From NCBI RefSeq assembly GCF_014643835.1, contig NZ_BMKD01000002.1:434001-498000 (forward strand): a stretch of 64,000 nucleotides of DNA, given 5' to 3'. The DNA is from Mucilaginibacter rubeus. GTDB lineage: Bacteria > Bacteroidota > Bacteroidia > Sphingobacteriales > Sphingobacteriaceae. Below the pieces are notes generated by a model. It was not told where the DNA came from and made no database searches. It saw only the letters and a program-made list of their open reading frames with translations. The translations under genes were made by a program, and so were the position numbers. Positions 52,684 through 61,360 of this stretch are shown here, piece by piece (position 1 is the stretch's first letter; each line of letters starts with the position of its first letter).

Positions 52684-53748
52684 ATGAAGAAAATATTATT
52701 CATTACAGGTTCAATTAACCAAACCACTCAAATGCACCAGATAGCTAATGAGCTGCCTGAGTTTGACTGCTGGTTTAGCCAGTTGTTTACTGATAATACT
52801 ACCTTAAATACCATTATTAATAAAACTACCCTGCTTAGCGGCACAGTGCTTTCTACCAAATTCAGGCTTATTTCTGAAGAGTACCTTCAAAAACATGCTT
52901 TACAAATTGATTTCAGGGCACAAAAAAACAAATATGACCTTGTTGTATTCTGTACCGATTTGATTGTGCCTCCGCGCATGCGCAACATTAAAACCATTTG
53001 GGTGCAAGAGGGTATGATTGATCGTTACACTCCCTGGAGCAGTGTTGTTAAAGCCCTAAAGCTTCCTCCTACACTTTGCGGCAACACCTCGTTAAACGGT
53101 TCGTCAAACATATGTGATGTCTATTGTGCCGCATCAGAAGGTTACAAACAGTACTTTACAGGTAAAGGTACCAGCGAACGCAAAATTGTGGTAACCGGCA
53201 TGCCAAACTATGATAACCTGGTTCAGCACGTTAATAATGATTTTCCGCACCACAACTATGTAATGGTAGCCACTACTGATATGCGCGAAACATTCCGCAT
53301 TGAAAACAGGATTGCCTTTATTAAAAAAGCAGTAAAAATTGCCAATGGCCGTCCATTGCTCTTTAAACTTCATCCGAATGAGAATGTCGGGCGTGCAGAA
53401 AAAGAAATCTACGCCAATACGCCGGCCGGTACATTGGTATACAGTAAAGGCAATACTAACCATATGATAGCTAATTGCTGTGAGCTTATTACACAATACT
53501 CAACTGTAGTTTATACAGGTATTGCTTTAGGCAAAAAAGTTCATTCACTTTTTGATGTCGATGAGCTTAAAAGACTTGCACCGATACAAAACGATGGCGT
53601 ATCAGCAAGAAATATCGCTGCCATTTGCCGCGGTTTTTTAAACCACGATGGCGATAAGAAAAGTTTTGACCCGCACACGGCTATGGATAAATACCAGGTT
53701 AATAAGCCGGAGACGCAATTAACCGAAGAACTAATAGCTAACTGGTAA
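52684..53748 (+). CDS. GT-B-like transferase, CDP-glycerol-phosphotransferase/2-epimerase-like
   Basis: A 354-residue cytoplasmic protein of the GT-B plan: N-terminal Rossmann half (KKILFITGSINQTTQMHQIAN), hinge, and C-terminal half with KIVVTGMPNYDNL and LLFKLHPNE, which resemble capsule polysaccharide transferases and CDP-glycerol glycerophosphotransferases. It is the first gene of a nine-gene cluster that makes an activated ulosonic acid and is the best candidate for its transfer onto an acceptor. A sugar-2-epimerase role is the alternative, but typical NeuC motifs are not apparent. It ends 9 bp before the cytidylyltransferase gene. Confidence 0.55.
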   Translation: MKKILFITGSINQTTQMHQIANELPEFDCWFSQLFTDNTTLNTIINKTTLLSGTVLSTKFRLISEEYLQKHALQIDFRAQKNKYDLVVFCTDLIVPPRMRNIKTIWVQEGMIDRYTPWSSVVKALKLPPTLCGNTSLNGSSNICDVYCAASEGYKQYFTGKGTSERKIVVTGMPNYDNLVQHVNNDFPHHNYVMVATTDMRETFRIENRIAFIKKAVKIANGRPLLFKLHPNENVGRAEKEIYANTPAGTLVYSKGNTNHMIANCCELITQYSTVVYTGIALGKKVHSLFDVDELKRLAPIQNDGVSARNIAAICRGFLNHDGDKKSFDPHTAMDKYQVNKPETQLTEELIANW

Positions 53749-53757
53749 TCATTTACC

Positions 53758-54585
53758 GTGAAACAGAAAATATTAATTGTAGTACAGGCCCGCATGGCTT
53801 CGAGCCGTTTACCGGGTAAGGTAATGCTGCCTATATTGGGTAAAAGCCTGCTGGCAAGGATGATTGAGCGGCTTAAAATGATTAGCCATGAGGCTGAAGT
53901 GATCATTGCCACATCCGAAACGCCGGCTGATGATATCATCATCAATGAAGCTATTAACATAGGTGTCCCTTATTATCGCGGCAGTCTGAATAACCTGCTC
54001 GACAGGCATTACCAGGCAGCGAAATTGCATAATGCAGATGTTGTATTAAAGATCCCCTCTGATTGCCCGCTCATTGATCCGCGTATTGTGGACCATGTAT
54101 TGGATTACTTTTTTGCCAACCAAAACAGCTTTGATTTTGTAAGCAACCTGCACCCGGCTACATATCCCGATGGCAACGATGTGGAGATCATGACCATGGA
54201 TTGCCTCACCAAAGCTTGGGAACAAGCAAGCCGGGAGCTGGAACTGGAGCATACCACTCCTTATATATGGGAAAATCCTCAATTATTCAGGCTTGGTAAC
54301 GTAACCTGGCCTGCCGGTTTGGATTATTCCATGTCGCACCGGTTTACGATTGACTATGCAGAAGACTATTATTTCATAGAACGGGTATTCCGCGAATTAT
54401 ATGCAGATAACAATAATTTCTCGTGCGATGATATTCTTAACCTGCTAACTCAAAAACCCGAGATCTATAATATCAATGCACAATATGCCGGGGTAAACTG
54501 GTACAGGCACCATGTAGATGAGCTAAAAACCATTACATCTGCCCAAACCAAACAGGCACCCTCAAAAAACTTACAGGAATTATAA
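53758..54585 (+). CDS. SpsF/NeuA-type cytidylyltransferase
   Basis: A 275-residue nucleotidyltransferase. The start ILIVVQARMASSRLPGKVMLPILGKSLL is the SpsF/CMP-KDO-synthetase signature, with the Arg-Leu-Pro-Gly-Lys CTP-binding loop. KIPSDCPLIDPRIVD is the typical metal-binding SDxP block. The family activates KDO, sialic acid or other acids as CMP-sugars. The C-terminus has an additional Gln/Lys-rich tail. Initiation is by GTG at 53758. It would activate the product of the downstream synthase. Confidence 0.8.
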   Translation: MKQKILIVVQARMASSRLPGKVMLPILGKSLLARMIERLKMISHEAEVIIATSETPADDIIINEAINIGVPYYRGSLNNLLDRHYQAAKLHNADVVLKIPSDCPLIDPRIVDHVLDYFFANQNSFDFVSNLHPATYPDGNDVEIMTMDCLTKAWEQASRELELEHTTPYIWENPQLFRLGNVTWPAGLDYSMSHRFTIDYAEDYYFIERVFRELYADNNNFSCDDILNLLTQKPEIYNINAQYAGVNWYRHHVDELKTITSAQTKQAPSKNLQEL

Positions 54586-54592
54586 CAAGCGA

Positions 54593-55459
54593 ATGATAAC
54601 AGTGGAGAACAACAATTACCAGGAATTAACAGGCACCGCTCTGAAGGTACGGGAGCACATCATCCGCATGTCTACCGATGGCGGGTGTTTTACAGGTGCA
54701 TCGCTATCGGCGGTGGACCTTATTGTTTATTTATATAGCCGCTTTTTAAACATTAACAAGGATAATCTTGATGATCCAAACCGCGATTACCTTTTTCTGT
54801 CAAAAGGCCACGATGTGCCCGCCCTGTACGGCACCTTTGCCGAGCTGGGTTTATTGGAGAAAGAACGTTTAAAAAACCACCTGCTACTTAATGATCATAT
54901 TTACTGGCACCCAAACACCAAAATTCCAGGCATTGAGTTCCACTCAGGCTCATTAGGTCATTTACCTTCGGTAGCTATTGGCGTTGCTATGGATTTGAAG
55001 ATCAGCGGCGGCACAAACAAAGTTGTTTGCATTTTGGGCGATGGCGAGTTGAACGAAGGCACCTGCTGGGAAGCCATGCTGGTAGCCAACGCTTATAAAC
55101 TGGATAACCTGCTATTCGTGGTTGACCGTAACCACTTCCAGGCCAATGTGCGTACGGAAGACCTGATTCCGCTGGAACCGCTTGCCGATAAGTTTGAAGC
55201 CTTTGGCGCAGCCGTTAAAAGAATAAACGGACACAGTTTTGCTGAGCTTGACGAAGCTTTTGGCGCTTTCCCTTTTCAGGCCGAAAAACTTAATGTCATT
55301 ATTGCCGATACAGTGCGCGGCAAAGGCCTGCCAAGCATACAGGAACGTGCAGATAGGTGGTTTTGTAATTTCAATGCAGACGAGATTCAGCAGCTTTTAT
55401 TAGAGCTGCACGGCGAACATCAAACAACATTAACATCAGAAACTTTAGTGGTGCGATAA
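54593..55459 (+). CDS. Transketolase, N-terminal (TPP-binding) subunit
   Basis: A 288-residue protein equal to the first half of transketolase: KGHD (His73), the TPP/metal motif GDGELNEG (149-156) and the following Asn in VVDRNHF. With the next gene it forms a split transketolase, as in archaeal and several secondary-sugar pathways, rather than the single-chain enzyme of the pentose phosphate route. It would move a two-carbon ketol unit to or from an aldose to build the sugar precursor. It starts 7 bp after the cytidylyltransferase gene. Confidence 0.88.
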   Translation: MITVENNNYQELTGTALKVREHIIRMSTDGGCFTGASLSAVDLIVYLYSRFLNINKDNLDDPNRDYLFLSKGHDVPALYGTFAELGLLEKERLKNHLLLNDHIYWHPNTKIPGIEFHSGSLGHLPSVAIGVAMDLKISGGTNKVVCILGDGELNEGTCWEAMLVANAYKLDNLLFVVDRNHFQANVRTEDLIPLEPLADKFEAFGAAVKRINGHSFAELDEAFGAFPFQAEKLNVIIADTVRGKGLPSIQERADRWFCNFNADEIQQLLLELHGEHQTTLTSETLVVR

Positions 55460-55460
55460 G

Positions 55461-56399
55461 ATGAGTTACGAAGAACTTTTAACCCAAACAGCCCTTGCCA
55501 ACGAGCAAGTGATTGTAATGACCGCCGAAAACCGCGCGCTGGTACGTAACCTGCCCGGTATATTAGGCAAACGTTTTATTGATACCGGTATTACCGAGCA
55601 AACCATGATTGGTGCGGCGGCGGGCCTTGCCCTGCGTGGTCGTACCCCGGTAGTACACGCGCTTGCCGCTTTTTTAACCATGCGTGCGTTTGAGTTTGTA
55701 CGTACCGATGTTGGCATAGCCAATTTGCCGGTTAAGTTGAGCTCATTCATCCCCGGTTTTTTATCAGATGGTAACGGGCCAACCCACCAGGCTGTTGAAG
55801 ATATCTCGATTATGCGTGGCATCCCTAATGTAACCGTATTTGCCCCGGCTGATGAAGATGACCTGGTAAAAATGCTGCCTCAGATCTGGGAAAGCAAAAG
55901 CCCGGCATACACCCGCATCAACACACGCAAAACCACTTACGTACACGAACCTTTTACCCCAGGCAAAGCCGAAGTGATAGCTGAGGGCAGCGATGTAACT
56001 ATTTTAACCTACGGCTTGTTATTTGAGCAGGCGCTCATCGCTGTTGAAATGCTGAAAAGCGAAGGCCTTTCTGTGGGTTTGATCAACATGCGCAGCCTTA
56101 AACCTGTTGATGAGCAGGCTATATTAAAAGCATCGGCACAAAGCAAACTGGTAGTTACGCTTGAAGACCATTTTTTAACCGGTGGTCTTTACGCCATTGT
56201 AGCCGAAGTTTTATTAAAACACCGTACCACAGCTAACGTACTGCCTATGGCGCTGAACGAAAAATGGTTCAGGCCGGCACTGCTTCCTTCTGTATTGGAG
56301 CATGAAGGTTTTACAGGCAAACAGATTGCCGAAAAAATACTGGGCTACCAAACTACCCACAACCAACCACAAATTTTAACACCTGAATTTTCAGAATAA
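55461..56399 (+). CDS. Transketolase, C-terminal (pyrimidine-binding) subunit
   Basis: A 312-residue second half of transketolase: the conserved Glu in FIDTGITEQTMIGAAAGLA activates TPP, followed by the Asp/Phe block (GNGPTHQAVEDISIMRGIPN) and the C-terminal regulatory fold. It starts 1 bp after the first subunit gene, so the two are made in equal amounts. Substrate specificity is not readable; phosphorylated aldoses are usual. Confidence 0.88.
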   Translation: MSYEELLTQTALANEQVIVMTAENRALVRNLPGILGKRFIDTGITEQTMIGAAAGLALRGRTPVVHALAAFLTMRAFEFVRTDVGIANLPVKLSSFIPGFLSDGNGPTHQAVEDISIMRGIPNVTVFAPADEDDLVKMLPQIWESKSPAYTRINTRKTTYVHEPFTPGKAEVIAEGSDVTILTYGLLFEQALIAVEMLKSEGLSVGLINMRSLKPVDEQAILKASAQSKLVVTLEDHFLTGGLYAIVAEVLLKHRTTANVLPMALNEKWFRPALLPSVLEHEGFTGKQIAEKILGYQTTHNQPQILTPEFSE

Positions 56400-56410
56400 A
56401 AATATTGACC

Positions 56411-57751
56411 ATGGCTAATAAAATAGACCTTAACAACGATTATCCAAACATTACCGAGTCAGATAAATTATACGAACGCGCTTTAAAAGTTCAGAAACCG
56501 GTTACTCAAACCCTCGCTAAAGGCCCGGGTCAATTTACCAAAGGTGTAGCGCCAAAATATCTTGTAAAAGGTAAAGGATCGCATGTATGGGATGTAGACG
56601 GTAACGAATATATTGACCTGAACTCGGCTATCGGCCCTATTTCTTTGGGTTATGCCTACCCTGCTGTTGACGAGGCTATTAGTCAGCAATTGAATGATGG
56701 TATTACCTTTTCATTGATGCACCCACTTGAGGTTGAACTTTCAGAACTGGTACAACAGGTTGTACCTAATGCTGAAGCGGTAAAGATCTCTAAAACAGGA
56801 GCTGATGTTTGTTCGGCAGCTATCCGCGTAGCACGTGCATTTACTGGTCGCGATAAGGTATTTTGCTGTGGTTACCATGGCTGGCACGACTGGTATATTG
56901 GTATCACCAGTCGCAACTCGGGTGTGCCTGAAGCTATCCAGGATTTAACTTACACTTTTGAATATAATGACATTGAATCAGTAAAAGCAGCTTTGGATGA
57001 AACAGTTGCTGCCCTTATACTGGAGCCTTTCATTTTTGAGGCACCGAAACCGGGCTATCTGCAGGAACTGGCAGAAGTTTGCAAAGCTAATGGCACCCTG
57101 CTCATTTTTGACGAAATGTGGACAGGCTTCCGTGTAGCAGTTGGTGGCGCGCAGGAGTATTTCAATGTTAAAGCTGATTTGGCTGTGTTTTCAAAAGCAT
57201 GTGCCAACGGTATGCCAATAGCATTGTTAACAGGCCGTGCCGATGTGATGGAGTTGTTCAACTCTGAAGTATTCAGCTATACAACCTTTGGCGGCGAAGC
57301 TTTATCATTAGCGGCTTGCATCGCTACGATCAATGAGCTTCGCGATAAAAAGGTACCACAATACCTTGACGAACATGGTGCACTTTTAAAAGATGGCTAC
57401 AACAGCCTTGCCATTGAGTTGGGCGTTGATAAATACACCCATTGTGTAGGTTTTAACTGCCGCAGCATGGTAACCTTTACTCCTGATGCAGGTAACGGTC
57501 TGGAAGTAAAAACCTTCATGCAGCAGGAAATGATAAAACGCGGCGTGCTTTGGGCTGGCTTCCACAATATGTGCTACAGCCACACCACCGAGGATATCGA
57601 CTACATCCTTGCTGCTTACCGTGATGTATTGCCATTGCTAAAAGCAGCCATCGAAAGCGGTAACATCAAAGGTCAACTAAAAGGTGAAGTGTTAGAGGCC
57701 GTTTTCCGTAAGGTGAGCAATTACAACATCAAACCTAAAAGTATAGCCTAA
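56411..57751 (+). CDS. GSA-aminomutase-like class III aminotransferase
   Basis: A PLP enzyme of about 446 residues. Lys262 (SKACANGMPIALLTGR) is the PLP lysine and DEMWTGFR the glutamate-1-semialdehyde-aminomutase-like block. True HemL is expected as a housekeeping gene elsewhere; this copy sits in a sugar cluster between transketolase and SDR, so it more likely aminates a keto group or aldehyde of the sugar. ATG 56411 is preferred over TTG 56405. The TFGGEALSLAA block places it among sugar-modifying relatives. Confidence 0.82.
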   Translation: MANKIDLNNDYPNITESDKLYERALKVQKPVTQTLAKGPGQFTKGVAPKYLVKGKGSHVWDVDGNEYIDLNSAIGPISLGYAYPAVDEAISQQLNDGITFSLMHPLEVELSELVQQVVPNAEAVKISKTGADVCSAAIRVARAFTGRDKVFCCGYHGWHDWYIGITSRNSGVPEAIQDLTYTFEYNDIESVKAALDETVAALILEPFIFEAPKPGYLQELAEVCKANGTLLIFDEMWTGFRVAVGGAQEYFNVKADLAVFSKACANGMPIALLTGRADVMELFNSEVFSYTTFGGEALSLAACIATINELRDKKVPQYLDEHGALLKDGYNSLAIELGVDKYTHCVGFNCRSMVTFTPDAGNGLEVKTFMQQEMIKRGVLWAGFHNMCYSHTTEDIDYILAAYRDVLPLLKAAIESGNIKGQLKGEVLEAVFRKVSNYNIKPKSIA

Positions 57752-57754
57752 GTC

Positions 57755-58558
57755 ATGGATCTGTTTTCATTAAAAGGGAAAACTGCAGTTGTAACGGGTG
57801 CTTTAGGGCTCATCGGCCGTAAACATTGCGAAGCCCTTGCAGCAGCAGGTGCAAACGTGATAGTTGCCGACATAAACGCCGAAGCGACCAAGGCATTTGC
57901 CGAACAACTGGGGGGTAACCACCTGGGCCTGGGCGTTGACGTAACCAGTAAGGACTCATTAATTGACGCGCTTAACGTAGCGCTTGATAAATATGATTCG
58001 GTTGATGTACTGGTAAATAATGCCGCCATTAACGATAAGTTCGAGAACCCGGCCATGGCTAAGGAGCTATCTGCGTTTGAAAACTATCCGCTGGAAGCTT
58101 TTCAGCAATCGCTTAATGTAAATGTTACCGGCGTATTCTTATGCTCACAGGTATTTGGTACACACATGGCCTTGCAACGCAGCGGTAGTATCATTAATAT
58201 AGCTTCAACCTATGGCATTGTTGGGCCAGATCAAAGCATTTACCGCGATTCGCGCGGTCAGCAGACTTTTTACAAGTCGGCAGCATACCCGGTTACTAAG
58301 GGGGCTATCATCAATTTCACCCGCTTTTTAGCAGCCTATTGGGGCCATACCGGCGTGAGGGTAAATACCCTTTCTCCGGGCGGCGTTGAAGCCGGGCAAA
58401 CCGAAGATTTCATTGGCAACTATTCAGCAAAAACTTTATTAGGGCGCATGGCCCAAGCGTCAGACTATCAGGGCGCGCTTATATTCCTGGCCAGCGAGGC
58501 ATCGGCTTATATGACCGGCGCTAACCTGGTTGTGGACGGGGGGTGGACAGCTATTTAA
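57755..58558 (+). CDS. Short-chain dehydrogenase (PtmA-like)
   Basis: A 267-residue SDR: NAD(P) motif TGALGLIG (14-21), NNAA block, catalytic Ser in INIAST and Tyr178/Lys182 (YPVTK). The FENYPLEAFQQSLNVNVTGVFLCSQ block resembles PtmA-type enzymes found in flagellin-glycan and nonulosonic-acid loci. It would oxidise or reduce a hydroxyl/keto of the sugar intermediate. Starts 3 bp after the aminotransferase. Confidence 0.82.
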   Translation: MDLFSLKGKTAVVTGALGLIGRKHCEALAAAGANVIVADINAEATKAFAEQLGGNHLGLGVDVTSKDSLIDALNVALDKYDSVDVLVNNAAINDKFENPAMAKELSAFENYPLEAFQQSLNVNVTGVFLCSQVFGTHMALQRSGSIINIASTYGIVGPDQSIYRDSRGQQTFYKSAAYPVTKGAIINFTRFLAAYWGHTGVRVNTLSPGGVEAGQTEDFIGNYSAKTLLGRMAQASDYQGALIFLASEASAYMTGANLVVDGGWTAI

Positions 58559-58573
58559 TTTAAACCAACTATT

Positions 58574-60016
58574 ATGAACGAGATTTTAAAACAAAAAGCG
58601 GCCGGCATTAAATTATTGCTTACCGACAACGATGGGGTTTTAACAGATGCCGGAGTATACTACAATCACGACGGCGAGCTTTTAAAAAAATTCAGCATGC
58701 GCGATGGTATGGGGGTTGAACGCCTTCGCAAATTTGCTGATGTAAATACTGGTATTATTACCGGCGAAAACTCGCCGTCATTAATTAAAAGAGCAGAAAA
58801 ATTACACATCACCGAACTGCATTTAGGTACAAAAGATAAAGTAGCTGCTTTTAAAGAAATTTGCGGCCGCTTAGAGCTGCAACCTACCGAAGTTGCTTTT
58901 ATCGGCGATGATTACAACGACCTGGAAGTGATGAAACTGGCCGGCCTTACCGCGTCTCCTGCCGATGCTTTACCGCACGTTAAAGCACAGGTAGACTTCG
59001 TAAGTTCATTAAATGGTGGCGACGGGTGCTTCCGGGAGTTTGCCGAACTGATTATCGAAGCCAAAAACGAAAAATACTTATCGGGTAAAAGAAATGGCAC
59101 CATCACTTTACAAAACGGCCGGATAATTGGCAAAGGCCAACCAAGCTATATCATTGCCGAAATTGGCATCAACCACAATGGTTCACTTGATATTTGTAAG
59201 AAATTAATTGATGAGGCTGTAGCAGCCAAAGCCGATGCGGTTAAATTTCAAAAACGCACACCTGAAATTTGCGTGCCGCGCGATCAGTGGGAAATTATGC
59301 GTGACACCCCATGGGGCCGCATTACCTATATCGACTACAAACGTAAAACCGAATTTGGCATAGCCGAATATGCAACCATCGACCAATATTGCAAAAAAGT
59401 AGGTATCGACTGGTTTGTATCTGCCTGGGACGCACCATCTGTCGATTTTATGGAACAGTTTGATACCATCCTATACAAACTGGCGTCGGCGTCATTAACC
59501 GACTTTGCCCTGATCCAGCGTATCCTTGAAACCGGCAAACCGTTAATGCTTTCAACCGGTATGTCGACCATGAAAGAGATCGAAACAACTATGGATTATA
59601 TCAATGCCTTTGATGAAAACTATCCACTGTTTATTGCTCATTCAACTTCAGCTTATCCATGCCCTCCGCATGAGCTTAACCTTAAAATGATCCAGACGCT
59701 GGAGAATAAATATCCGGGCATCCCTATCGGCTATTCGGGCCACGAAACAGGTTTGGCAACTACCGTGGGTGCAGTAGCTATGGGCGCAACTTTTGTTGAG
59801 CGCCACTTTACGCTCGACCGTGCCATGTGGGGATCTGACCATGCTGCTTCTGTTGAGCCTCAGGGTTTACAACGTTTAGTGCGCGACATCAGGGATGTTG
59901 AAACGGCAGCTGGTGACGGTGAAAAACGTGTTTACGAATCAGAACTTGCACCAATGAAACGTTTAAGGGTAAACATCAGCGACGAATATAAAGAGAAACC
60001 AAGCGTTAAATCATAA
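58574..60016 (+). CDS. KdsC-like HAD phosphatase fused to NeuB-type ulosonic acid synthase
   Basis: A 480-residue two-domain enzyme. Residues 1-165 form a C0-type HAD phosphatase: nucleophile region TDNDGVLTD (D18, D20), GDDYND (111-116) and the KdsC-like GG-GCFREF tail. Residues about 187-455 form a NeuB TIM barrel: AEIGINHNG (195-203), KFQ (224-226), H356, GYSGHETG (386-393), ERHFTLDR (409-416) and GSDHAAS. NeuB condenses PEP with an aldose to give a 3-deoxy-ulosonic acid; here the phosphatase domain suggests a phosphorylated sugar, as for KDN-9-phosphate synthase/phosphatase of Bacteroides. The C-terminal SAF (antifreeze-like) domain of standard NeuB is missing, and GYSDHT is GYSGHE. Ends overlapping the next start by one base. 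Confidence 0.88.
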   Translation: MNEILKQKAAGIKLLLTDNDGVLTDAGVYYNHDGELLKKFSMRDGMGVERLRKFADVNTGIITGENSPSLIKRAEKLHITELHLGTKDKVAAFKEICGRLELQPTEVAFIGDDYNDLEVMKLAGLTASPADALPHVKAQVDFVSSLNGGDGCFREFAELIIEAKNEKYLSGKRNGTITLQNGRIIGKGQPSYIIAEIGINHNGSLDICKKLIDEAVAAKADAVKFQKRTPEICVPRDQWEIMRDTPWGRITYIDYKRKTEFGIAEYATIDQYCKKVGIDWFVSAWDAPSVDFMEQFDTILYKLASASLTDFALIQRILETGKPLMLSTGMSTMKEIETTMDYINAFDENYPLFIAHSTSAYPCPPHELNLKMIQTLENKYPGIPIGYSGHETGLATTVGAVAMGATFVERHFTLDRAMWGSDHAASVEPQGLQRLVRDIRDVETAAGDGEKRVYESELAPMKRLRVNISDEYKEKPSVKS

Positions 60017-60975
60017 TGTCTCCGGAAAAACTAGCCACCATAATTACATCTATTATCCTTTTTTGCTGGATAGGATTCATCATTGCCTGGGAACGAATAT
60101 CGCCTTACAGAAAAGGCTTGAAATTTTTCAGGGAGGGGTTTTGGATTGATTTAGTGTGGTATACACTGATACAAAGTTATTTTTTAAAAATCCTCATTTT
60201 CGATTATATCATTAAGCCTTTAGAGGCGCATTTTGATCTGTCGCATATGCATTTAATAAGTAACTGGCCTGTAGCATTACAAGTTTTGTTTTTCCTGCTT
60301 ACGCATGACCTTTATATTTATTTGTTTCACCGCTTTCAGCACTCCAATAAATTTTTCTGGCGTATTCATGAGGCGCACCACTCGGGCAAGGAGGTTGACT
60401 TTTTAGCCGGTTCGCGTTCGCATATCATGGAGATCATCATTAATCAAACCATTGAGTTTGCACCTATCATTTTGTTAGGTGCCAACCCAATAGTTATACC
60501 GATAAAAGCTATGTTAGATGCCATGTTTGGCATGTTTATACACGGCAATATTAAGGTAAACATGGGCAAGCTTAAGTACATCATTAACTCGCCCCAATTG
60601 CATTTATGGCACCATGCCAATTACCAGGAAGTTTTTCACGCCAACTTCGCAACGAAGTTTTCATTTTGGGATTACCTTTTCGGTACCGTTTATGACCCGG
60701 GCCACACGCCTGGCAACAAGCCCGAAAACTGGGGCCTCTATTATGATTACCCCAAAGATTACTTTTTGCAGCATGCATTCAGCGTAAAACGCTTCGACGA
60801 AAAAACGCTGCTCAAATACCGCTGGTTTAACTGGTATTATCACCTGCGGCCACGGTTTATGAATTGGATGAAAACTTTACTTCCTGTTAAAATAAACAAT
60901 GCACCTAAATTGGAGATTGAGCAGCAACCCGTTACCTTAGTATCCGAACAAGAAAACGTACTACAACAAAACTAA
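60016..60975 (+). CDS. Sterol-desaturase/fatty-acid-hydroxylase family protein
   Basis: A 319-residue membrane di-iron enzyme. The His clusters are H97-x7-H105-x3-H109, H118-x2-H121-H122 and H196-x2-H199-H200 with H208, the full set for iron binding. Three to four membrane helices surround them. It hydroxylates or desaturates an aliphatic chain using oxygen. The start ATG overlaps the stop of the preceding gene (TAATG), so it is translationally coupled to the ulosonic-acid synthase, which suggests that the sugar becomes part of a hydroxylated lipid. Confidence 0.88.
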   Translation: MSPEKLATIITSIILFCWIGFIIAWERISPYRKGLKFFREGFWIDLVWYTLIQSYFLKILIFDYIIKPLEAHFDLSHMHLISNWPVALQVLFFLLTHDLYIYLFHRFQHSNKFFWRIHEAHHSGKEVDFLAGSRSHIMEIIINQTIEFAPIILLGANPIVIPIKAMLDAMFGMFIHGNIKVNMGKLKYIINSPQLHLWHHANYQEVFHANFATKFSFWDYLFGTVYDPGHTPGNKPENWGLYYDYPKDYFLQHAFSVKRFDEKTLLKYRWFNWYYHLRPRFMNWMKTLLPVKINNAPKLEIEQQPVTLVSEQENVLQQN

Positions 60976-60982
60976 AAACATA

Positions 60983-61360
60983 TTGGCCTGGCTATATATT
61001 TTAATCGCAGCCGCATTTGAAGCGGCCTGGACATTCTCGCTAAAATTCATGAAATTCAGCGATTTGAAGGCACTTCGTCTTAATTCTGTTTTAAGCCTGC
61101 AACATGGCCTGCCAGTATGGTTACCTTTTGTTGGCTATATTGTTTTTGGCATCGGCAATATCTACTTTTTTTCGCTGGCAATAAAACTGGTGCCAACAGC
61201 CGTAGCATATGCTGTTTGGACAGCGGTAACCCTCATCCTGATTAAATTAGTAGAAGTTTCGTTTTTAAATCAGCGCCTCTCCTACGTGGAAATATTTTTC
61301 ATGCTACTGATCATGACAGGTGTTTTAGGTTTGAAATTTTATGGACCGGAAATAAAGTAA
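60983..61360 (+). CDS. SMR/EamA-type small membrane transporter (ArnE/ArnF-like)
   Basis: A 125-residue four-helix protein. The start AWLYILIAAAFEAAW with Glu13 is typical of SMR proteins; translation starts at TTG 60983. It is longer than EmrE/SugE (about 105) because of an insert of about 20 residues between helices 1 and 2. In polysaccharide clusters such proteins (ArnE/ArnF-like) flip lipid-linked sugars. Seven bp from the hydroxylase gene. Drug export is the alternative. Confidence 0.75.
   Translation: MAWLYILIAAAFEAAWTFSLKFMKFSDLKALRLNSVLSLQHGLPVWLPFVGYIVFGIGNIYFFSLAIKLVPTAVAYAVWTAVTLILIKLVEVSFLNQRLSYVEIFFMLLIMTGVLGLKFYGPEIK

Follow-up and report, generated by a model that had tools for sequence, protein, structure and literature searches.

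The window analysed here, a 64,000-nucleotide stretch of a Mucilaginibacter rubeus contig (NZ_BMKD01000002.1, positions 434,001 to 498,000), possesses nine open frames on the plus strand between positions 52684 and 61360. They encode the following proteins and domains (loci counted are those of the comparison below):

52684..53748, +, GT-B enzyme, proposed CMP-ulosonate transferase (gene 1; motif argument)
53758..54585, +, SpsF-type CMP-sugar synthetase (CTP_transf_3 PF02348, 99.4 bits; 82/82 loci)
54593..55459, +, split transketolase, N-terminal subunit (Transketolase_N PF00456, 81 bits; GDG..N retained)
55461..56399, +, split transketolase, C-terminal subunit (Transket_pyr PF02779 and Transketolase_C PF02780)
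56405..57751, +, class III (GSA-like) aminotransferase, AT (Aminotran_3 PF00202, 166.6 bits)
57755..58558, +, SDR dehydrogenase (PF13561, 158 bits; YPVTK and TGALGLIG motifs; 82/82 loci)
58574..59110, +, HAD phosphatase domain of KdsC / KDN-9-P phosphatase type (TIGR01670, 144.3 bits; cut-off 106.95)
59111..60016, +, NeuB domain without C-terminal SAF, fused to the HAD (PF03102, 255 bits)
60016..60975, +, membrane FA_hydroxylase-family enzyme (PF04116, 96 bits; 68/82 loci)
60983..61360, +, SMR-family small membrane protein, possible flippase (PF00893, 54.8 bits)

All nine genes and their order, as given in the first-pass annotation, were confirmed by the open frames and the family profile matches. 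The intergenic gaps of 9, 7, 1, 5, 3, 15, -1 and 7 bp hinge on the start codons chosen; the tight spacing holds, within a range of -1 to 15 bp instead of the -1 to 23 bp first claimed. A family scan of ten window proteins outside the operon found none evidently linked to it.

The operon is no local oddity. The order GT, CMP-synthetase, split transketolase, class III AT, SDR, (HAD), NeuB and hydroxylase is kept in 25/27 same-genus carriers, whose flanks differ while the operon order stays, and GT and NeuB are found together in 59 loci outside the genus; the recurrence of the order is therefore beyond chance. Similar operons with some genes absent occur, among the best 80 of at least 534 loci, in Ignavibacteria, Kapabacteria, Chlorobiota, Myxococcota, Nitrospirota and Methylococcaceae. 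Together with 23 genus loci, the 59 form a set of 82. Among the 59, GT, NeuB and AT do not give independent counts, because AT served to find these loci and only those with GT and NeuB side by side were retained. Besides loci that failed this rule, eight duplicates (one contig reached by two routes) and short-flank loci were dropped from the count; ORFs outside length limits were removed from the HAD and GT alignments, where a few duplicate rows remain.

As originally proposed, this operon very probably directs the synthesis of a 3-deoxy-ulosonic acid and its activation with CMP. The usual aldose-supply genes are indeed missing: family scans assigned none of the nine genes to NeuC, NeuD or the Leg and Pse sets, and none encodes a UDP/GDP-sugar dehydratase, DegT aminotransferase or acetyltransferase of the legionaminic/pseudaminic set. 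NeuC encoded elsewhere in the genome, which the first-pass annotation had held to speak against its proposal, was searched for in 24/27 same-genus carriers; it matched in 4 and exceeded the cut-off in 1, leaving 23/24 without a match above the cut-off. The exception, genome G008, possesses its NeuC in a separate NeuC/NeuD/DegT/NeuB cluster (L051). The four nearest genomes encode a single NeuB each (E 1e-20).

The NeuB domain scores below the equivalog cut-offs of NeuB_NnaB (254 of 400 bits) and PseI (201 of 340 bits), and 16/16 aligned operon NeuBs stop after the barrel, lacking the SAF domain, while 5/5 comparators extend further. This uncharacterised family is found in 92/98 genomes of one class and, among the best 80 of at least 534 loci, in several other phyla. 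KdsA is encoded separately in 20/20 carriers, and a role of NeuB as Kdo-8-P synthase was therefore rejected.

The fused HAD domain contains E65 and K76, invariant in 70 alignment rows (66 distinct), a Glu/Lys pair at what we take to be the specificity positions of KDN-9-P phosphatases. The same pair is found in the 3e81 chain; in the four other chains shown, one position is R and the other A, S, T or E. The equivalent positions are S/S in 10 same-genus housekeeping KdsCs, and on these residue differences the domain was rejected as a housekeeping KdsC. Against the KDN-9-P phosphatase equivalog NF058599 it scores 148.2 bits, below the cut-off of 180 and about equal to its KdsC score; a single-sequence search ranks KdsC chains (114.5 bits) above 3e81 (103.4 bits), and a profile search likewise ranks 2p9j above 3e81. 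The residues suggest a KDN-9-phosphate-type intermediate, in which case a hexose-6-phosphate from housekeeping metabolism would serve as the aldose and the operon would require no gene of its own to supply it. The PMI C-terminal domain model PF01238 matched 0/21, but with just 2/14 controls matching, this carries no information on mannose-6-phosphate supply. Among the 59 non-genus loci, 42 possess the HAD only, 7 the metallophosphoesterase MPEa only, 0 both and 10 neither; this hints that HAD and MPEa may be alternative phosphatases, but no more than that, because kinship among the loci makes their counts non-independent.

The split transketolase retains the TPP motif GDGE..N and the catalytic Glu of GITEQ. 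The positions of His30 and His263, which with Asp477 (yeast numbering) are presumably the canonical substrate residues, are Phe and Phe in 15/15 aligned sequences, and that of Asp477 is Asn in 14/14; by our reading of the alignments, three of the four residues we take to be phosphate-binding are missing. The enzyme is present in 69/82 operons and missing in 13/59 non-genus ones, and no orthologue was found elsewhere in the genome in 12/12 transketolase-less genomes searched. A full-length transketolase stands in its place at one locus (L102) and, by best match, at two more (L152, L197); TkFL counts were left out as cross-hits of the split pair. The active site of the split enzyme looks altered, and what it makes or modifies may be optional.

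The AT best matches NCBIfam PRK06209 (357.8 bits, below the cut-off of 486) and belongs to a discrete clade (at least 51% identity) found in 54/394 phylum genomes, the next best match reaching at most 40%. Family f38 (presumed Chlorobiaceae) encodes a NeuB orthologue in 81/86 genomes and the AT clade in 0/86. Its NeuB orthologues are of 66-75% identity and nest among those of AT operons in a careful tree, and its SDR relatives are only 36-39% identical (10 genomes). Reading 20 kb at 10/10 f38 NeuB loci revealed no relative of AT, SDR or TkN; the HAD lies directly 5' of NeuB in all ten. The GT is located apart from NeuB, with a flippase, CMP-synthetase, Fe-ADH and KdnA-like enzyme within 6 kb of it in 10/10 (full gene order read in L260-L263). 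The best solved relative of this DegT aminotransferase is KdnA (5k8b; 260 bits vs 169 for the next), and the Fe-ADH is weakly KdnB-like (5.6e-15), other Fe-ADHs matching better. Across 98 genomes, AT (8 genomes) and the KdnA-like enzyme (80) never occur together: the latter is found in 80/86 f38 genomes and 0/12 others, the former in 0/86 and 8/12, while 6/86 f38 genomes yielded no KdnA match and 4/12 others no AT match. KdnA acts downstream of PEP condensation. Because the transketolase is optional, KdnA and Fe-ADH are swapped in by f38 and the two aminotransferases never co-occur, it is probable that SDR and AT add the amino group once NeuB has formed the ulosonic acid, in the manner of KdnB/KdnA in Kdo8N synthesis. 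However, the substrate of the KdnA-like enzyme in f38 could be Kdo from KdsA, with no relation to NeuB, whose gene lies at another locus.

We hypothesize, with a probability of roughly 45%, that the enzymes of this operon synthesise an amino 3-deoxy-ulosonic acid, likeliest a nine-carbon, KDN-derived one aminated after PEP condensation, and pass it on to an acceptor. NeuB would join PEP to an unacylated aldose phosphate, probably mannose-6-phosphate, giving a KDN-9-phosphate-like product from which the HAD, judging by its family and residues, would strip the phosphate. The SDR would then oxidise one hydroxyl and the class III AT would aminate the oxidised position, comparable to KdnB/KdnA acting on Kdo in Shewanella; both assignments draw on the non-homologous replacement in the Chlorobiaceae-like family. 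SpsF would convert the product to a CMP-sugar, from which the GT-B enzyme would attach the sugar to a molecule of the envelope. This acceptor may be a lipid that receives a hydroxyl from the FA_hydroxylase-family enzyme and is moved by the SMR or an HpnL-like protein. The split transketolase may make or modify something optional. The new ulosonic acid proposed at first pass is still plausible, as an amino-KDN-type sugar with late amination; the less well supported part is the building of the aldose by transketolase, AT and SDR.

The Kdo8N pathway of Shewanella similarly places a dehydrogenase and an aminotransferase beside a CMP-sugar synthetase (KdnB/KdnA), and the Chlorobiaceae-like version employs a KdnA-family enzyme. 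The window differs in carrying a non-homologous SDR and class III AT instead, and its skeleton would be made by NeuB, with KdsA separate. With the KDN pathway, for which we take Bacteroides thetaiotaomicron BT1714/BT1713 to be the KDN-9-P synthase and KDN-9-P phosphatase, the operon shares NeuB and a C0 HAD bearing the E/K pair of 3e81; unlike it, the operon falls below the NF058599 cut-off and has an extra dehydrogenase, aminotransferase and transketolase. Relatives of AT (33%) and SDR (37-39%) also lie near a NeuB in the clusters L050 and L114; however, L050 adds a DegT gene, and L114 adds DegT, NeuD and NeuC to a NeuB with SAF domain. In the Serratia KL1/KL2 capsule, KDN and Neu5Ac are made with neuA-neuB, neuC being unnamed in the available part of the source (PMC9000132). 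In contrast to the operon, that NeuB has an isomerase domain, the locus is a polysaccharide one, and the same part of the text names no amination pair (PMC9000132).

The FA_hydroxylase-family enzyme best matches NCBIfam OlsE (102 bits, below the cut-off of 475). The SMR gene is found in 19/23 genus loci and 7/59 others, the HpnL-like flippase in 11/59 non-genus loci and 10/10 f38 loci; they occur together in 0/59, and as just ~1.3 joint loci are expected by chance (hand calculation), the case for their mutual exclusion is weak. OlsF relatives adjoin the operon in 8/59 non-genus loci. The same amino sugar might instead decorate the LPS inner core, in a Kdo8N-like manner and with no separate lipid: Kdo8N is an LPS sugar, and some Ignavibacterium-type loci have a recurrent set of upstream genes that, read by eye, resemble GT9. 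However, the hydroxylase, OlsF relatives and HpnL-like flippase suit a lipid better, and we consider an LPS acceptor somewhat unlikely.

The route proposed at first pass builds the aldose before NeuB: SDR and AT would yield an amino sugar phosphate, and two-carbon transfer by the transketolase an amino aldose for NeuB and PEP. In AHBA biosynthesis, kanosamine and a split transketolase feed aminoDAHP synthase; that pathway too has a split transketolase beside a PEP-condensing enzyme, whereas here the transketolase is optional and the condensing enzyme NeuB-type. A literature search returned nothing relevant tying transketolase to nonulosonic acid, NeuB or Leptospira. The frequency of the transketolase and its replacement in place argue for this route, and its kept TPP and catalytic residues with changed substrate residues fit an unusual substrate. 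Nevertheless, the transketolase-less operons in genomes without an orthologue, the missing phosphate-binding residues, the HAD residues and the f38 NeuB orthologues without the AT clade or its neighbours speak against it; we rejected it as the best reading and regard it as unlikely.

An aldose supply could also be hidden in gene 1, if this encoded a divergent NeuC-like UDP-sugar 2-epimerase of an ordinary nonulosonic acid pathway. Its fold is closest to epimerases in structure alignment. However, Epimerase_2 scores 22.2 bits against a cut-off of 30.6 and stays under it in all five family members seen, while Glyphos_transf matches 20/26. The family's invariant QEG, HP and S[ST] may correspond to the motifs of bacterial sialyltransferase-like GT-B enzymes ([DE][DE]G, HP, S[ST]), and GTRPE and SGGxQEE, motifs of the epimerases, were not seen by eye in the alignment. 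An epimerase would, moreover, leave the operon without a transferase, which makes this reading very improbable. Gene 1 reaches no Pfam cut-off, and the original GT-B assignment is proposed on the strength of its motifs. Hardly credible is an ordinary O-antigen or capsule cluster of one strain, which we rejected: loci of that kind often carry NeuB/SpsF genes and the GT9-like genes would fit, but content and order are conserved within the genus and over several phyla, and the operon has a single GT.

Extending the preferred post-condensation route, we speculate about an undescribed glycolipid class with a free-amine nonulosonic acid, in which KDN is aminated to neuraminic acid or a 9-amino isomer without NeuC/ManNAc and placed onto a hydroxylated lipid. 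The SDR with class III AT and the Fe-ADH with KdnA-type enzyme would perform the same step, and the transketolase might act on the oxidised sugar, lengthening or otherwise altering it; the full picture is quite unlikely to hold in every part. Jensen et al. in 1991 reportedly described an aminoglycosphingolipid from Chlorobium limicola, whose head group could match. Our literature search for Chlorobium aminolipids found just a citation; Jensen 1991 is mentioned in PMC11762602.

If the proposed pathway is true, it would represent a de novo route to an amino-nonulosonic acid that needs no N-acetylated precursor and brings in the nitrogen at a late stage, with one step solved by two unrelated enzyme pairs. 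It would also give a function to the uncharacterised NeuB family and point to candidate genes behind the aminoglycolipid in green sulfur bacteria.

Family searches confirmed the nine genes in tight order described by the first-pass annotation; neighbouring genes are separated by −1 to 15 bp:

52684..61360, + strand: nine-gene operon encoding a GT-B enzyme (GT), an SpsF-type cytidylyltransferase, transketolase N and C subunits, a class III aminotransferase (AT), an SDR, a HAD-NeuB fusion, an FA_hydroxylase and an SMR protein

Among the NCBIfam matches listed for the nine proteins (the top 25 for AT and SDR), only a KdsC-type HAD subfamily model exceeded its cut-off. A literature search that covered few subscription papers turned up no description of a cluster like this one.

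A HAD-NeuB homologue occurs in 27 of 37 same-genus genomes sampled, fused in 23 (73–96% identity) and split into two genes in four (NeuB 74–81%). When the surroundings of all 27 loci were compared, the GT-to-hydroxylase order was unchanged in 25 and the flanks differed; HAD-NeuB stands alone at locus L025, and L046 is broken off by a contig end. Beyond the genus, the AT sequences make up a clade clearly set apart: in 54 of 394 genomes of the phylum they reach at least 51% identity, the rest lying at or below 40% among the matches listed. No AT match at E 1e-50 was found in five sampled genomes from the family's other genera, and within the class beyond the genus the clade reaches only two genomes (G129 and G203).

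We fetched 35 places around AT matches, 28 from the AT clade and seven (L108–L114) with an AT of 33–39% identity. The operon is absent at all seven; neither GT nor NeuB was seen nearby at three of the 28 clade places (L094, L116, L119), L086 carries GT to AT only, and at L093 the genes from SDR to NeuB lie ~7 kb away. An AT profile scan of one genome per named species (84,980 species) returned at least 534 relatives, the best 80 of which include Ignavibacteria, Kapabacteria, Chlorobiota, Myxococcales, Nitrospirae, Holophagales, Desulfobulbaceae, KSB1 and Methylococcaceae. Neighbours at these best 80 loci, contig fragments included, were SDR (74), NeuB (71), SpsF (68), GT (65), transketolase C (57) and N (53), HAD (52) and hydroxylase (50); no transketolase or hydroxylase was seen at the two Methylococcaceae loci. 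A further set of 82 loci (23 from the genus, window included, and 59 others) was chosen for having GT and NeuB together and enough flank, known duplicates removed. SDR and SpsF were present in 82/82 each (AT, the search key, also 82), the transketolase in 69, hydroxylase in 68 and HAD in 65.

The transketolase is missing from 13 of the 59 non-genus loci. No orthologue was found in any of 12 tested genomes whose operon omits it (relatives of 25–35% identity only), and the same search recovered the copy at 60–98% identity in the four genomes with an operon transketolase. Here and elsewhere, genome-wide statements are drawn from relatives of the window's genome. One full-length transketolase occupies the split pair's position at L102, as does a single-chain one, by best match only, at L152 and L197. 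The operon enzyme, whose closest relative of solved structure is the Carboxydothermus split transketolase, retains the TPP motif and the catalytic Glu, but in the alignments the positions that we take to be His30 and His263 (yeast numbering) are Phe (15/15) and that of Asp477 is Asn (14/14), and three of four phosphate ligands, read by eye, are gone. This pattern suggests that the substrate is unusual and perhaps unphosphorylated.

The SAF domain, which in known NeuBs carries the arginine binding the N-acetyl group, is absent from 16/16 aligned operon NeuBs and present in 5/5 comparators. HAD Glu65 and Lys76 occur in all 70 rows (66 distinct) and, among five solved chains compared, in 3e81, which we take to be the KDN-9-P phosphatase BT1713, its PDB name saying cytidylyltransferase; the corresponding residues are Arg/Glu in 2p9j, Arg/Ala in 3n07, Arg/Ser in 3mn1, Arg/Thr in 3ij5 and Ser/Ser in ten same-genus housekeeping KdsCs. 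Against this, overall HAD similarity does not single out 3e81, and NCBIfam scores for KDN-9-P phosphatase (148 bits) and KdsC (145 bits) are near equal, both under cut-off. On balance, the Glu/Lys pair and the NeuB without SAF lead us to favour a KDN-9-phosphate-like intermediate, which would derive from Man-6-P. NeuC is apparently dispensable for making KDN: in Serratia, the KL1 and KL2 capsules, which contain KDN, require neuB, and the passages cited name just neuA and neuB (PMC9000132).

In the 59 non-genus loci, HAD occurs alone in 42, a metallophosphoesterase alone in seven, neither in 10 and both in none, hinting that a phosphatase step is needed and suggesting that the metallophosphoesterase stands in for HAD. 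At L098, L103–L107, L122, L127 and L128 a metallophosphoesterase lies 3′ of the hydroxylase, which the ORF picker missed at L103 and L105, and no HAD gene was found.

An HpnL-like flippase lies near 11 and OlsF (ornithine-lipid synthase) relatives near eight of the 59 non-genus loci, the one scanned (L092) scoring 717.7 bits against a cut-off of 620; SMR is present in 19 of 23 genus loci, and the operon holds one GT. Together with the frequent hydroxylase, these features suit a lipid acceptor, transfer to the LPS core being a somewhat less likely alternative. OlsF relatives lie directly 3′ of, or near, the operon at L090, L092, L101, L137, L146, L148, L149, L166, L197 and L199, and a link to aminolipids is possible.

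A divergent version occurs in f38, a family presumed to be Chlorobiaceae. NeuB, KdnA-like and AT searches covered the same 98 genomes of its class, that of genome G144. NeuB orthologues (66–75% identity) occur in 92 of the 98, including 81 of 86 in f38; KdnA-like genes in 80/86 f38 and 0/12 other genomes; and the AT clade in 0/86 and 8/12, respectively. The f38 NeuBs are nested among AT-operon NeuBs in a careful tree (89-row clade, support 99/99). In 10/10 f38 loci a HAD gene (49–54% identity) lies directly 5′ of NeuB, and no AT, SDR, SpsF or transketolase N relatives were found in the 20 kb read around it. The same 10 genomes carry a GT orthologue (49–54%), SDR matches of just 36–39% and SpsF matches of 30–37% in two and none in eight. 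Within 6 kb of GT, all ten have an HpnL-like flippase, a PseF-like CMP-synthetase, an Fe-ADH and a DegT aminotransferase (full gene order read in L260–L263, protein families from one member each). The best solved relative of this aminotransferase is KdnA (5k8b; 260 bits vs. 169 for the next), and the KdnB match of the Fe-ADH is weak. The cluster, seen in L255–L264 (stretches of at most 20 kb) of these presumed green sulfur bacteria, offers candidate genes for the Chlorobium aminoglycosphingolipid.

Since f38 keeps NeuB, GT and HAD relatives, lacks the AT clade and has Fe-ADH and KdnA-like genes, we infer that two alternative enzyme pairs, SDR plus AT and Fe-ADH plus a KdnA-type enzyme, serve the same step, in which the ulosonic acid is oxidised and aminated. 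KdnB is described as the Kdo 8-oxidase catalyzing the first step of Kdo8N synthesis (PMC5125639). The f38 KdnA-like enzyme might instead serve KdsA-made Kdo, KdsA being present in 20/20 carriers tested, four f38 among them. Other NeuB clusters, at L050 and L114 (the latter also with NeuC and NeuD), hold distant AT (33%) and SDR (37–39%) relatives, and late amination may occur there as well. Compared with known systems, the scheme proposed for the operon would combine nonulosonic acid synthesis with late amination of the Kdo8N type.
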